Part shown: in pieces, positions 1 to 7,120 of the stretch
How the letters are laid out: each line of letters opens with the position of its first letter
Numbering within the stretch: the first letter of the stretch is position 1
NCBI RefSeq assembly: GCF_013394595.1
Contig: NZ_CP053348.1
Coordinates: 2,506,001 to 2,570,000 of the forward strand
Direction: 5' to 3'
From: Winogradskyella forsetii
GTDB taxonomy: Bacteria > Bacteroidota > Bacteroidia > Flavobacteriales > Flavobacteriaceae
DNA: 64,000 nt
Program-made: the position numbers and the translations under genes
Notes under the pieces: generated by a model
What the model was told of the DNA's origin: nothing
Database searches by the model: none
Seen by the model: the letters and a program-made list of their open reading frames with translations, nothing else

Positions 1-3000
1 AAGCATCAATAAAAAAGGATAGGGTAATAATGAAGCCCTATCGCGCTAAAAACGTTAAAAATGAATGGCGATGGGTTGAAACAATACTCACAAATATGTT
101 GGAGAATCCAGCAATTAAAGGTATTGTTATCAATTCACGTGACATTACAGAAAAAATTAAGCAGGAAGAAAAAATTATTCGAACTGAGAAAAGATTTGAG
201 ACGCTCATCGAAAACAGCACAGACTGCATCACCATAATTTCTCCAGAGGGAGAGACAAATTTCATTTCTAAGGCTATAAAAAACATTCTAGGTTACACAC
301 CTTCAGAAGCAATGGACTTAGATATTTGGGAACAGATTCATCCAGAAGATAGAGATGGCTCCAACGTTGCTCTAGCTCAAGCCTTAGAGAATCCAGGTGT
401 TTCCATAGAAGGGCACACTTCTAGAATGAAACACAAAGATGGATCATGGAGATGGGTTAATCCTATAGTAACAAATCTGATACACGACCCTTCTATTGAA
501 GGAATTGTGGATGTTATAAGGGATGTAACCAAGCAAAAAACTGAAGCGCTAGAAAAAGATCTCATCGATAAAATAAACAATTGTTTTAATCAAAAATCAG
601 ATAATGACCTAACTACCATCCTGTCAGGTGTATCTGAGCAAATTGTTAAATTTGGTGATTTTAGTTTTGCTGAAATTTGGTTGCCAACTTTTGACAATAA
701 AAAGATTAAACGCACAGCAAGTTACGCCAAGAGTCAATCTGGCAAGAGGTTTTTTAAAGATTCTAAAAAATTAAACATTTTAGGTGTAGAAGTAGGCTTA
801 TCAGACCAAGTTTTGAAAAACAGAAAAACAGTAATTTGGGAGTCTGTTGATGATGAATGGCAATCATTCAAGAGAAAAGCTGCTGCAGAAAAAGCAGGGA
901 TTAAATCACTTATTGCTATTCCTTTAATTCACAATGGTAAATTATTAGGTGGCCTTTTATTAGGCACAGAAAAAGTTAAATCTGCCCTTTCTGTGAATTT
1001 AGAGTTGTTTCAAAAATTAGAGTCAACCCTTGGCTCCGAACTAAGCAGAAAGAAAACAGAGGTTGAGCTTAATCAAATTTTCAGTTTCGCCCCTGACATG
1101 ATTTGTATGGCAGGTTTTGATGGCTATATTAAGCGGATCAATCCAGCTGGTTTGGAATTGTTGGGGTATTCATTAGAAGAAATTCGTTCACGTCCAATAA
1201 AGTCATTCGTACATGAGGAAGATCAGTCCCAAACAGAAAAAAAACAACATGATTTACATACAGGTAAAAATCTAGACAATTTTGAGAATCGGTATATTAC
1301 AAAAGAGGGCAAAGTCATTTGGTTGAGCTGGACCGCCACTTCTTTACCAGAACAAGGTATTATTTATGCCGTTGCCAAAAATATCACTCAAGAAAAAAAA
1401 CTCAGGGAATTGAATAGGCAAGTTGGTGTTCTTGCGAAAATTGGAAGTTGGGAAGTGGATTTGGTAACCAAAAATCTCTTTTGGTCAGAAGAGGTTCACA
1501 AGTTATATGAAACAGATGCAAAGACATTTGTTCCTACTGTGGATGCAGCTATCAACTTTTACAGAGAGGATTATCGCCAATTGGCACTGTCAAAGTTTGA
1601 AAAATGTATTGAAACGGGAGAGTCCTATAATATAGAAGCAGTTATCGTCACTTCTAGTAATAAGGAGCGGTGGGTACGCACTACTGCAAAAGCTGAATTT
1701 GTGGATGGCGTATGCACTCGAGTCTATGGCAGCTTCCAGGACATTGATGCGCAAAAACAAGCAGAAAACAGGCTGCAGTCCTTAGCTGATAACTTACCTG
1801 GAATAATCTACAACTATGCTATTTATCCAGATGGTACAGACGCATTATTGCATGTAGCTGGAGATGTTGAGAAAATTTGGGGTTTTACAGCTAATCAAGT
1901 TATGGAAAATGCAGACCTACTCTGGGAACAAATTAAGTTGGGAGGCGACTTTGAAGAAGTTCAAGCAAGTATCCAAAAGTCTATCCGAACTAAATCAAAG
2001 TGGATAAATCGCTCTAAATATGTATCTCCAACAGGTGAAGTTCGTAACCTTTTAGGTTTTGGCAGTCCTAGTTTTTTAGCAGATGGCACCATTGTTTTTG
2101 ACTCCATTATTCTTGATAATACGAAAGAAGCTCGAAATGAAATTTTACTCGAGCAGACCACCAAATTAGCTAGAATCGGTAGTTGGGAAATGGATTTAAT
2201 AAACCGGGAAGGAGATAATATATATTGGTCACCAATGATTAGAAAAATTCTGGAATTGGATGATGATTATAATCCTACCTTCTCTAGTGGCTTTGATTTT
2301 TATGTTGACGAAAGTAAGAAGCGAATAGAACAAGCCATGGAACTTTTGATAAAAGATGGCATACCGTATGATTTAGAATTGTTATTGAGTACAGCTAAAG
2401 GCAATAAACGATGGATTAGATTAATTGGGTCAAGAGAGACCATCAATAACAAACCAATTAAACTTTACGGTAGTTTTCAAGATATCAATGAGAAGAAAAT
2501 AGCGACTCTCGCTCTTGAAAACAGTTTAAGGCAATTAAAAGACTATAAGTATTCACTAGACCAGGCTGCTATAATTGCTTTCACAGACCAGAAAGGGGTA
2601 ATAACTTCAGTGAATGATAATTTCTGTAGAATATCAGGTTATAGCAAAAAAGCGCTTCTTGGGAAAACACACAGGATCATTAATTCCGACTATCATTCAG
2701 CCACTTTTTTTAACGACCTGTGGAAAACAATAGCATCAGGAAAAGTATGGCGTGGAGAAATTAAAAACAAAGCGAAGAATGGCTCCTTTTATTGGGTTGA
2801 TACGACCATCGTACCTTTTTTAAATGAAAAAAACAAACCCAAACAATATTTGGCTATCCGTTTTGATATCACAGAACGAAAAAAGGCCGAAGATGAAAAA
2901 GCAAGATTCCAAGAAACGCTAGAAAACAGCTTAAATGAAATCTACATGTTCGATTCTAAAACCTTTAAATTCGGATATGTTAACAAAGGGGCCATGCTCA

Positions 3001-4718
3001 ACCTAGGCTACACGAAACAAGAACTACAAAATCTAACACCTTTAGACTTAAAACCTGAATACACAAAAGAGTCCTTTCGTCAATTGGTTTCACCCTTAAT
3101 AAGTCATGAAAAAGAGAAAGTCATATTTTTCACCAAACATAAGCGTAAAGACGGTAGTCTTTATCCTGTAGAGGTCCACTTGAAATTAGTTGAGGAAGCT
3201 GAATATAAAAGCTTCATTGCTATAATTTTAGATATAACAGAGCGTGAAAAAGCTGAACAAGATTTAATTGCGACCTCAGAAAGACTGCAACTTGCAACAA
3301 AAACAGGAAATATTGGTATTTGGGATTGGGATGTTTTAAATAATCAACTTATTTGGGACGATACCATGTTCCAAATTTTTGGAATTGAAAAAAACGAATT
3401 TCAAGGCACATTTGAGTCTTTGGAAGCAAATATTCATCCTGATGATATTAATGAAGTTAAAGAGGTAGTTCAAAACGCTTTAGAAAATTTTTCGAAATTT
3501 AGTACAGAATTTCGAGTAGTTAAGGATGATAAATCAATTAGATACGTCACAGGAGAAGCTATAGTAATAAGAGATGAGGTTTCAGGAAAACCCGTGAGAA
3601 TGTTAGGTACTAATAGAGATATTACCGAAAGAAAAAAAGCAGAGCAAGACATTCTTTTAGCCAACGAACGATTTGAAAAAGTTACCGAAGCCACGAATGA
3701 TGCCATTTGGGATTGGGATATAATAAACGATAAATTTTACCGCTCTGATGCTATAGAAAGATTTTTCGGAAAAAAAACACGTAAATCAATAACTTCAAAG
3801 GATTTTTGGAAAGATAGATTTCATGAAGATGACTTGGTCAAAATTCAAAAAAGTGTTGAAGAAGCCATTGCCAACCCTTCAACTGTTAAGTGGAAAATGG
3901 ATTACAAAATATTGAACGAAGAGGGAGAAACACTTTATATAATAGACCAAGGCGTAATCATCAGAAACAAGAAAGGAGAGGCCATTCGCATGGTTGGAGC
4001 GATGACTGATGTAACCGATTTAAAAAAAGCAGAAGAAGAGAGCAGGTTTAAAGCTAATTTATTAAGCATGGTTAGACAGGCGGCCATTGCAACTGACCTA
4101 GATGGAGAAGTTAACTACTGGAACAAAGGTGCGGAGGTTATGTATGGTTGGAAAGCGGAAGAAGCGTTGGGAAAGAATATTATGCAACTAACTACCTTGG
4201 AGACCAATAAGAAAGAAGCTCGGCAAATAATGCGAATGCTGAAAAAGGGTAAATCATGGTCGGGAGATTTTGAAGTACAGAAAAAAGATGGCACTAATTT
4301 CAATGTTATGATAACCAATTCGCCAATCTATGATGAGAACGATGAACTAAAAGGGATTATTGGTATTTCATCAGACATTACGCAAGAAATCAAAAATAAG
4401 GAGTTGCTAAAGCAATATACAAAAGAACTTGAGCGCTCCAATGAAGAGTTGGAACAATTTGCATTCGTTACGTCCCACGATTTACAAGAGCCCTTGCGGA
4501 TGATATCTGGCTTTATGGATCAGTTAAAACGAAAATATGAAGACCAACTCGACGAAAAAGCATTACAGTATATTTATTTTGCCACCGATGGTGCTAAACG
4601 CATGAAACAAATCATTTTGGATTTGCTTGATTATTCTAGAGCCAGTAAACCGACTGAAAAGATTGATGAAGTTAATTTAAATGAATTGATAGCAAACTAC
4701 AAACAACTTAGAAGATAA
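1..4718 (+). CDS. Multi-PAS/GAF sensor histidine kinase, 5'-partial, ends at a premature stop after the DHp domain
   Basis: Sensor kinase with no visible membrane segment, so the visible part looks cytoplasmic. The frame is already open from base 3 and the first visible residues are the end of a PAC motif (NEWRWVE, then SRDIT), so the gene begins before the window; the ATG at 30 is probably internal. Counting from that ATG: PAS/PAC about 54-170, GAF about 171-345, then PAS units starting near 345, 457, 580, 710, 838, 958, 1084, 1213 and 1339, most closed by a DIT-type motif. The DHp domain is about 1468-1545, with phospho-accepting His1483 in SHDLQEPLRM. The frame stops at TAA 4716-4718, and the ATPase domain continues in the same frame from 4719. 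A Lys to stop change (AAA/AAG to TAA) is the simplest explanation. As encoded this product cannot bind ATP. It heads a two-component operon. Family is certain; functional state is not. Confidence 0.9.
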   Translation, partial: ASIKKDRVIMKPYRAKNVKNEWRWVETILTNMLENPAIKGIVINSRDITEKIKQEEKIIRTEKRFETLIENSTDCITIISPEGETNFISKAIKNILGYTPSEAMDLDIWEQIHPEDRDGSNVALAQALENPGVSIEGHTSRMKHKDGSWRWVNPIVTNLIHDPSIEGIVDVIRDVTKQKTEALEKDLIDKINNCFNQKSDNDLTTILSGVSEQIVKFGDFSFAEIWLPTFDNKKIKRTASYAKSQSGKRFFKDSKKLNILGVEVGLSDQVLKNRKTVIWESVDDEWQSFKRKAAAEKAGIKSLIAIPLIHNGKLLGGLLLGTEKVKSALSVNLELFQKLESTLGSELSRKKTEVELNQIFSFAPDMICMAGFDGYIKRINPAGLELLGYSLEEIRSRPIKSFVHEEDQSQTEKKQHDLHTGKNLDNFENRYITKEGKVIWLSWTATSLPEQGIIYAVAKNITQEKKLRELNRQVGVLAKIGSWEVDLVTKNLFWSEEVHKLYETDAKTFVPTVDAAINFYREDYRQLALSKFEKCIETGESYNIEAVIVTSSNKERWVRTTAKAEFVDGVCTRVYGSFQDIDAQKQAENRLQSLADNLPGIIYNYAIYPDGTDALLHVAGDVEKIWGFTANQVMENADLLWEQIKLGGDFEEVQASIQKSIRTKSKWINRSKYVSPTGEVRNLLGFGSPSFLADGTIVFDSIILDNTKEARNEILLEQTTKLARIGSWEMDLINREGDNIYWSPMIRKILELDDDYNPTFSSGFDFYVDESKKRIEQAMELLIKDGIPYDLELLLSTAKGNKRWIRLIGSRETINNKPIKLYGSFQDINEKKIATLALENSLRQLKDYKYSLDQAAIIAFTDQKGVITSVNDNFCRISGYSKKALLGKTHRIINSDYHSATFFNDLWKTIASGKVWRGEIKNKAKNGSFYWVDTTIVPFLNEKNKPKQYLAIRFDITERKKAEDEKARFQETLENSLNEIYMFDSKTFKFGYVNKGAMLNLGYTKQELQNLTPLDLKPEYTKESFRQLVSPLISHEKEKVIFFTKHKRKDGSLYPVEVHLKLVEEAEYKSFIAIILDITEREKAEQDLIATSERLQLATKTGNIGIWDWDVLNNQLIWDDTMFQIFGIEKNEFQGTFESLEANIHPDDINEVKEVVQNALENFSKFSTEFRVVKDDKSIRYVTGEAIVIRDEVSGKPVRMLGTNRDITERKKAEQDILLANERFEKVTEATNDAIWDWDIINDKFYRSDAIERFFGKKTRKSITSKDFWKDRFHEDDLVKIQKSVEEAIANPSTVKWKMDYKILNEEGETLYIIDQGVIIRNKKGEAIRMVGAMTDVTDLKKAEEESRFKANLLSMVRQAAIATDLDGEVNYWNKGAEVMYGWKAEEALGKNIMQLTTLETNKKEARQIMRMLKKGKSWSGDFEVQKKDGTNFNVMITNSPIYDENDELKGIIGISSDITQEIKNKELLKQYTKELERSNEELEQFAFVTSHDLQEPLRMISGFMDQLKRKYEDQLDEKALQYIYFATDGAKRMKQIILDLLDYSRASKPTEKIDEVNLNELIANYKQLRR

Positions 4719-5129
4719 GTGATAGCAGAAACTTCTGCCTCCATCACAGCAACAGAATTACCCACTATAAAATCTTACAGTGCTGTAGTGACTCAAATTT
4801 TTCATGGTTTGTTAGATAATGCTATTAAATATGCTAGAGATGAAGTTGCACCTATGATAGAAATCGAAGCCACAGAAAAAGAAAAAGAATGGGAATTTTC
4901 AATCACCGACAATGGGATTGGCATAGATTCGCAATTCTTCGATAAAATTTTCCTTATCTTCCAAAGGTTGCATAATCGAAATAAATATGACGGCACAGGG
5001 ATTGGACTCGCCATTGTTAAACGAAGTGTTGAGTTTTTGAATGGGAAAATTTGGCTTTCATCTACAGTGGGTGAAGGCACCACCTTTAACTTTACAATAA
5101 TTAAAAACAGAAAAACAATAGAAGAATGA
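4719..5129 (+). CDS. HATPase_c (CA) domain severed from the preceding histidine kinase
   Basis: This 136-residue frame is the catalytic ATP-binding domain that would complete the kinase ending at 4718. It is in the same frame and directly abuts the TAA. The N box (HGLLDNAIKYA), G1 box (DNGIGID) and G2 box (GTGIGLAIVKRS) are all present, so the domain itself looks intact. The first codon after the stop is GTG, so stop-restart translation (TAAGTG) could make a free CA domain that phosphorylates the upstream DHp in trans. Equally, the whole gene may be a recent nonsense pseudogene or carry a sequencing error. The 3' end overlaps the next gene's ATG in an ATGA arrangement, so translational coupling to the receiver is likely. 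Confidence 0.75.
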   Translation: MIAETSASITATELPTIKSYSAVVTQIFHGLLDNAIKYARDEVAPMIEIEATEKEKEWEFSITDNGIGIDSQFFDKIFLIFQRLHNRNKYDGTGIGLAIVKRSVEFLNGKIWLSSTVGEGTTFNFTIIKNRKTIEE

Positions 5130-5551
5130 ACTTAGCAAACATCCTCTTAGTAGAGGACAATGAGGGAGATATTCTCCTTACCCGAGAAGCTTTTGAAGAA
5201 AGCAGAGTAAAAACAGTAATTAATGTCGCTAGGAATGGACAAGAAGCGCTTGATTATCTATTTAAAAGAGGGGATTTTACGGAAGCAAAAAAACCCGACT
5301 TGATTCTTTTGGATATTAACATACCGATTTTTGATGGTCATGAAGTATTAAATAAAATAAAAAGTGATCCAGTACTCAAAAAAATTCCCGTAATTGTATT
5401 GACCACTTCCTCAAATGAAAAGGATATTGAAAAAGCTTATGCCAACCATACCAACAGTTATGTAAGAAAGCCTCTCAATATGGAGGACTTTTTAAAAGCT
5501 ATATTAAAAATAGAAGAATTTTGGTTGCAAATAACGACTCTAACCAAATAG
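5126..5551 (+). CDS. Single-domain response regulator (CheY/Rcp1-like)
   Basis: A 141-residue stand-alone receiver domain. The acidic pocket is E10-D11, the phospho-accepting residue is D63 in LILLDIN, the switch Thr is in VIVLTTSS, and the conserved Lys is in VRKPL. The insert with GDFTEAKKPD before D63 is typical of the Rcp1 group of receivers that partner PAS/GAF-containing kinases. There is no output domain, so it should act by phosphotransfer or protein contact. Its ATG overlaps the kinase stop codon (ATGA), which makes the upstream split kinase its likely partner. Four bases separate it from the next gene. Confidence 0.93.
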   Translation: MNLANILLVEDNEGDILLTREAFEESRVKTVINVARNGQEALDYLFKRGDFTEAKKPDLILLDINIPIFDGHEVLNKIKSDPVLKKIPVIVLTTSSNEKDIEKAYANHTNSYVRKPLNMEDFLKAILKIEEFWLQITTLTK

Positions 5552-5555
5552 GTAC

Positions 5556-6581
5556 ATGAAGAAGGACTTAAAATACGAAGAACCTATTACTGTTTTAGTC
5601 GTAGAGAATAATGACGGCGACTTTGTACTTGTTGAAGATTATTTATTTGAAAAATTTAAGTCTATAGAAGTTAAACGATCTCAAGATTTTAAAGAAACAG
5701 CTTCTACTATTGAAAAAAATAAATCATCACTATCTGTTATTCTTTTAGATTTACATTTACATGATGGAAGCGGTCTAGAACTCATAAAAAAAGTGCTTAC
5801 CGCTGCCAATGATATTCCTATACTAATTTTAACGGGTTATTCTGATGTATCGATAGCTCAATTAAGTCTTCAATTGGGTGTATACGACTTTTTGGTAAAA
5901 GATGAGTTAAATCCCAATTTGCTTTATAAAAGCATCGATTTCGCAATAAATAGGAGACAGTTTATCTGCCAAATTGAAAGTGAGCGTTTAAACTATGAAA
6001 ACCTCTTTAATTTCAGTCCACAACCTATGTGGCTTTTAGACCATGATAATTTCAAGATTTTAAATGCCAACTATTCTGCCATTAAAAACTATGGGTATTC
6101 ACTTAAGGAATACCAAGACATGTCATTTATGACATTACATCCAAAAGAAGAGCAAGAACATGTATCTAAATGGCTTTCAGATGATACTCATACTGCCAAA
6201 AATGACAATTTTATACATTTATTAAAAGATGGCACCCAAATTAAAGTGGATGTTCATAGTGAAGAAGTAAAAAGCGCTTCCAATGAAAAAATGACCATTG
6301 TACAATCCAATGATATAACGGAGACTTTAAATCATATTGAAACGATAGAAATTCAAAACAATTCACTTAGAGAAATAGCTTGGACACAATCCCATGTAGT
6401 CAGAGCACCACTGTCAAGGATTTTGGGCATAATTGATTTGATTGAAACTCACAAGGACAACATTGAAGACCTTTCATTTTGGCTAAATGAATTGAAAAAC
6501 TCTTCAAACGAAATGGACACTATTGTAAAAGAAATAGTAAATAAATCCCAAAATTTTAACCTAACCAACCAAGATGAATAA
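5556..6581 (+). CDS. Receiver-PAS-DHp protein lacking an ATPase domain
   Basis: A 341-residue hybrid. Residues about 10-130 are a receiver (acidic residues in VVENNDGD, phospho-accepting Asp in VILLDLHLHDGSG, Lys in FLVKDE). Residues about 143-258 are a PAS domain ending in SNDITE. Residues about 265-335 form a DHp-like helical pair with a modified H box, QSHVVRAPLSRILG. There is no N, G1 or G2 box, and the gene ends right after the DHp segment, so autophosphorylation is not possible. It may be a phosphotransfer relay or scaffold between kinase and receivers. The last 8 bases overlap the next gene. Similar REC-PAS-DHp proteins are common in flavobacteria, so the lack of a CA domain is probably native rather than a truncation. 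Confidence 0.85.
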   Translation: MKKDLKYEEPITVLVVENNDGDFVLVEDYLFEKFKSIEVKRSQDFKETASTIEKNKSSLSVILLDLHLHDGSGLELIKKVLTAANDIPILILTGYSDVSIAQLSLQLGVYDFLVKDELNPNLLYKSIDFAINRRQFICQIESERLNYENLFNFSPQPMWLLDHDNFKILNANYSAIKNYGYSLKEYQDMSFMTLHPKEEQEHVSKWLSDDTHTAKNDNFIHLLKDGTQIKVDVHSEEVKSASNEKMTIVQSNDITETLNHIETIEIQNNSLREIAWTQSHVVRAPLSRILGIIDLIETHKDNIEDLSFWLNELKNSSNEMDTIVKEIVNKSQNFNLTNQDE

Positions 6582-6966
6582 AGTTTTTTACATAGTTGAT
6601 GACGATCCTATTTTCAGGAAAATGATTAGCATCATGATACATAGAAATGATCCCACCGCTATTTGTAAACCATGTGAAAATGGCGCCATTGGCTTAAAAA
6701 AATTAGAACTCGAAAAAGAACAAAATAACAATAAAAACATCATCGTACTTTTAGATATTAATATGCCAGTACTTAATGGCTGGCAGTTTTTGAGGGAAAT
6801 AGAGTCGAACGCGATCTACGACATTACCAATCTTACCCTTTATGTTGTTTCGTCATCTACAGATCGAGTTGATATATTAAAAGCAAAACAACACTATAAA
6901 GTGAGCGGTTATTTTCATAAACCACTAATTGACGGTGATATTCGAAAGATATTAAAGCAGAATTAA
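6574..6966 (+). CDS. Single-domain response regulator (CheY-like)
   Basis: A 130-residue receiver with an N-terminal acidic triad (VDDDP), phospho-accepting Asp in VLLDINMP, and a conserved Lys in FHKPL. The usual switch Thr/Ser is probably in VVSSST. There is no output domain. It overlaps the upstream REC-PAS-DHp gene by 8 bases, so the two are probably translated in a coupled way. It is the last gene of the four-part phosphorelay operon. About 150 bp separate it from the convergent HD-domain gene, and I see no strong terminator there. Confidence 0.92.
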   Translation: MNKVFYIVDDDPIFRKMISIMIHRNDPTAICKPCENGAIGLKKLELEKEQNNNKNIIVLLDINMPVLNGWQFLREIESNAIYDITNLTLYVVSSSTDRVDILKAKQHYKVSGYFHKPLIDGDIRKILKQN

Positions 6967-7120
6967 TTTTACAGCCAAGGAGCTATCTCTTGGGATTTTA
7001 CGATTAGAGCTTTTAAGTTTTCCAAATTCATATAGCTATAATTAAAAATAACTTACGTGAGTTCGATATAACTATATTTGATTCTCGTTAGATAAAGAAA
7101 CTGATTTTTTAAGGTTTATT

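Follow-up and report, generated by a model that had tools for sequence, protein, structure and literature searches.

An in-frame TAA inside the CA domain of a large sensor kinase gene of Winogradskyella forsetii, probably a recent nonsense mutation in an accessory operon

Split kinases, young pseudogenes and the interrupted kinase frame

Kinases with the phosphoacceptor and ATP-binding parts on separate polypeptides have been described previously. CheA3/CheA4 of Rhodobacter sphaeroides is a natural split kinase, and the HisKA and HATPase parts of EnvZ work in vitro as separate polypeptides (PMC3591291). A large sensor kinase frame of Winogradskyella forsetii, interrupted by one in-frame TAA, is like these systems in that the two parts would come to lie on separate polypeptides. 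It differs from them in that the cut falls inside the CA fold, is not common to the relatives, and any trans activity would be hypothetical. The locus can also be compared with the young pseudogenes of prokaryotes, which are often transferred genes (PMC522871). The likeness lies in a single stop within an otherwise intact, non-core gene; the differences are that only one disablement is present here and that its effects on expression and function are predicted ones. The features of the locus are given below by their positions in the window, i.e., the whole stretch of 64,000 nucleotides that was analysed.

1-4718, + strand: PAS/GAF-DHp part of the large sensor kinase (many PAS matches, one GAF, HisKA), with its 5' end beyond the window
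4716-4718, + strand: TAA in the kinase frame, present in this genome alone and falling within CA helix 1
4719-5129, + strand: remaining CA (ATPase) coding part of 136 codons, with all nucleotide-binding boxes kept
5126-5551, + strand: single-domain receiver (Rec), whose ATG overlaps the final TGA of the kinase
5556-6581, + strand: Rec-PAS protein without CA, with a DHp-like segment, AWTQSHVVRAPLSRILG, at its C-terminus
6574-6966, + strand: second single-domain receiver
1-7118, + strand: the part, within the window, of an ~8.9 kb insertion that the sister species G033 lacks

As the first-pass annotation had described, the TAA at 4716-4718 is in frame and is directly followed by GTG (4719), after which the same frame is open to the TGA at 5127-5129. 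The kinase frame comprises 2019 codons, 1882 before the TAA and 136 after it. The TAA had been numbered codon 1563; it is codon 1883 of this frame, because the kinase ATG lies ~930 bases upstream of the window, and the truncated product would be 1882 amino acids in all. Pfam recognized HisKA before the TAA and HATPase_c after it, both above the cut-off. The N, G1, F, G2, and G3 boxes are all present downstream of the TAA and are invariant in the alignment. The combination of a DHp H-box and CA boxes in one frame that marks a sensor histidine kinase is obtained only if the TAA is read through, and the predicted product of the kinase gene is without CA.

Position of the stop within the CA fold

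The DHp-CA region was modelled as read through, with Lys in place of the TAA and an alignment of 13 sequences. The model reached a mean pLDDT of 83.7, with blocks of ~92-96 around the stop, and agrees with solved kinases, e.g., HK853 and ZraS. Its DHp helices are formed by residues 2-46 and 49-77, followed by CA strand 1 (86-89), CA helix 1 (90-108, with a small break at 101) and the strands 111-114 and 119-122. The TAA corresponds to model residue 103, past CA strand 1 and within CA helix 1. A profile search of the PDB placed the TAA at about position 100, and most isolated CA domains begin at profile positions 82-92; EnvZ (1bxd), PrrB (1ys3), 3a0t, PhoQ (1id0), and others match from positions 82-90 onward, upstream of the stop. 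The model, together with the positions at which most solved CA domains begin, thus ruled out a stop at the domain linker, and the earlier placement of the TAA "exactly between DHp and ATPase" was incorrect. The proposed order PAS/GAF-DHp-stop-CA holds insofar as HisKA precedes and HATPase_c follows the stop, and fails in that the stop cuts CA itself. The Pfam boundary is misleading in this respect, since the HATPase_c match begins only 24 residues past the TAA. A stop between two Pfam matches can still sit inside a structural domain, as this match starts past CA strand 1 and helix 1.

According to the model, the downstream ORF is without CA strand 1 and most of core helix 1, and keeps the boxes. 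This bears directly on the idea that translation restarts at GTG 4719 or later and that a free CA fragment phosphorylates DHp in trans, the proposed targets being either the truncated kinase's own DHp or the neighbouring DHp-like protein that has no CA. Such a restart is improbable. A GTG does lie immediately 3' of the TAA with AGAAG just upstream; however, AGAAG represents conserved Arg-Arg codons that are also present in relatives without the stop, and it is therefore no evidence of a new ribosome site. Still more improbable is a working two-piece kinase, composed of a 1882-residue sensor-DHp scaffold and a restart-made CA fragment of 136 residues that possibly serves a CA-less DHp-like protein. 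The CA boxes are intact and the operon already holds such a protein, but the fragment is devoid of strand 1 and most of helix 1, both of which are found in most solved isolated CA domains, and no relative is split. In a natural split kinase each polypeptide would be expected to carry a complete structural module, whereas here CA strand 1 is predicted to lie before the stop. Modelled alone, the 136-residue fragment gave a confident fold, which is no measure of stability and was not counted toward function. The option of a two-piece kinase acting in trans, as suggested in the first-pass annotation, is weakened by the cut inside the CA fold, the unsplit relatives and the Arg codons before the GTG. 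A functional free CA fragment, if there is one, would make the locus an example of a split kinase formed in a single step.

Relatives of the kinase and the age of the stop

The closest relative found was Maribacter sp. PR1 (81% identity over DHp-CA), whose ortholog (L029, 2577-8726) is an uninterrupted frame of 2049 codons with AAA at the stop position. The Maribacter kinase shares with the window kinase the multi-PAS architecture and, behind the kinase, the Rec and Rec-PAS-DHp-like genes; unlike the window kinase, the Maribacter kinase has no stop, carries CA on the same polypeptide and has other genomic neighbours. At this position AAA, AAG, or ACA is found in other relatives, among them Algoriphagus, Aquiflexum, and Cryomorpha. 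The expectation of a Lys codon in place of the TAA was therefore borne out in most relatives (AAA/AAG) and not in all, as Thr is found in one and Glu in a paralog of the same genome. The codon comparison that had been advised gave a sense codon in every homolog read, leaving the stop unique to this genome. No internal stop was present among the ~150 kinase matches listed from 58 genomes, nor in the closest matches from 397 genomes of the family. An ancestral split kinase was rejected, as no relative is split and every homolog read is one continuous frame; judged from these frames without an internal stop, the split is not a common one either. The paralogous kinase of the same genome (L041 4452-5789; G000 about 3103451-3104788) is intact, has a different N-terminus and shows 59-60% identity over DHp-CA.

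The continuous frame and the conserved CA half would also be in keeping with readthrough or recoding of the TAA, yielding some full-length kinase. This is the least probable of the readings: relatives do not conserve the stop, TAA ends 37 of the 50 ORFs in the window and is thus the ordinary stop used most often there, and ARAGORN found no TAA-reading tRNA in the tRNA loci that were covered, with no call for one weak candidate. The tRNAs found were all ordinary, and an alternative code or suppressor tRNA was accordingly dismissed for the tRNA loci searched. With neither a suppressor tRNA found nor a relative carrying the stop, the earlier suggestion of readthrough is unsupported.

Comparison of this gene with the Maribacter ortholog gave a dN of 0.15 and a dS of 1.30 for the post-stop part (dN/dS ~0.12), and a dN of 0.15 and a dS of 0.94 for the whole pre-stop part. 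When the post-stop residues were polarised with Algoriphagus, 3 changes were specific to this lineage and 9 to Maribacter, both being small counts. The view that the ATPase half shows no decay is upheld by the low dN/dS and by the want of an own-lineage excess. Older decay was rejected on the same absence of excess and on the absence of a second disabling change across the 2019 codons of the kinase frame. Neither dN/dS nor the polarised changes showed any sign of relaxed selection after the stop, as would be the case for a stop of very recent origin. This leaves three possibilities, namely a young stop, a CA ORF that remains in use, or a stop that does not exist in the cell; the intact CA half would fit the second of these too.

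The main rival is a base-calling error at the TAA, with the gene intact in the cell. The otherwise unbroken gene and the normal-looking selection on the CA half agree with such an error. On the other hand, the genome is one complete contig. A change of AAA to TAA would be a substitution, and long-read errors are mostly indels. In a published check of pseudogene stops against sequencing traces, 101 of 116 (87%) were confirmed, which speaks against an error, and 13% were unconfirmed, which speaks for it (PMC522871). On balance, a base-call error is unlikely.

The operon, its insertion and the predicted consequences of the stop

Rather than a natural two-piece kinase, the locus most likely represents an ordinary gene disabled not long ago, or else an error in the base call. 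The probable explanation is a recent nonsense mutation in a non-core operon, which would leave the sensor with no catalytic domain of its own. It is also the best supported of the four options listed in the first-pass annotation, as the stop is unique, the rest is intact and the gene is non-core. The gene carries an in-frame stop where homologs have sense codons, as in a nonsense pseudogene. A single recent point mutation would have produced the TAA from a sense codon, which in the nearest relatives encodes Lys. Translation would then end inside CA, giving a protein of 1882 residues with all sensors and the DHp histidine, and without the ATP-binding domain. As it has no ATP-binding domain, the truncated kinase would presumably be unable to autophosphorylate, and the operon output would probably be lost with it. 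It is not predicted to serve as a phosphatase either, since the N/T of the HE/DxxN/T phosphatase motif, as defined in PMC3591291, is absent; the alignment has an invariant HDLQE here instead. The remaining 136 codons most likely give no product or an unstable one. The downstream receivers may be affected too, as the start of the first one overlaps the normal stop of the kinase.

The first receiver and the Rec-PAS-DHp-like gene are also present behind the intact Maribacter kinase, with a similar order in two other relatives. The DHp-like tail of the Rec-PAS protein aligns with the H-box region of the kinase (hhalign probability 83%), and no Pfam family was recognized in the C-terminus of this protein (5556-6581). 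The protein ends ~60 residues past its DHp-like H-box, SHVVRAPLSRILG, and may be a phosphotransfer protein. Proteins similar to it adjoin the intact kinase in L029, L032, L033, and L035.

A close relative of the kinase gene was absent from all 67 other species in the genus. In the sister species G033, whose flanking proteins are 96-97% identical, the flanking exonuclease and 7TM-HD genes adjoin with three tRNA genes between them, whereas in this genome tRNA-Arg and the 7TM-HD gene are ~8.9 kb apart. This insertion (L093 4238-13118; G000 about 2504238-2513118), of which window positions 1-7118 are the right part, adjoins the 3' end of tRNA-Arg(TCT). Given the absence of close relatives of the gene from the rest of the genus and the ~8.9 kb missing in G033, the operon is accessory and was probably gained at the tRNA site; loss in the relatives stays a formal alternative. 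Loss of the kinase would be tolerable because the operon is an accessory insertion adjoining a tRNA gene. By itself, one strain-level broken accessory kinase is of little weight. No integrase gene was seen in the ~8.9 kb insertion. Its left edge harbors two GIY-YIG nuclease remnants (L093 4275-4523 and 4600-4654), one with an in-frame TAG, and duplicated pieces of tRNA-Arg just downstream of the tRNA-Arg gene.
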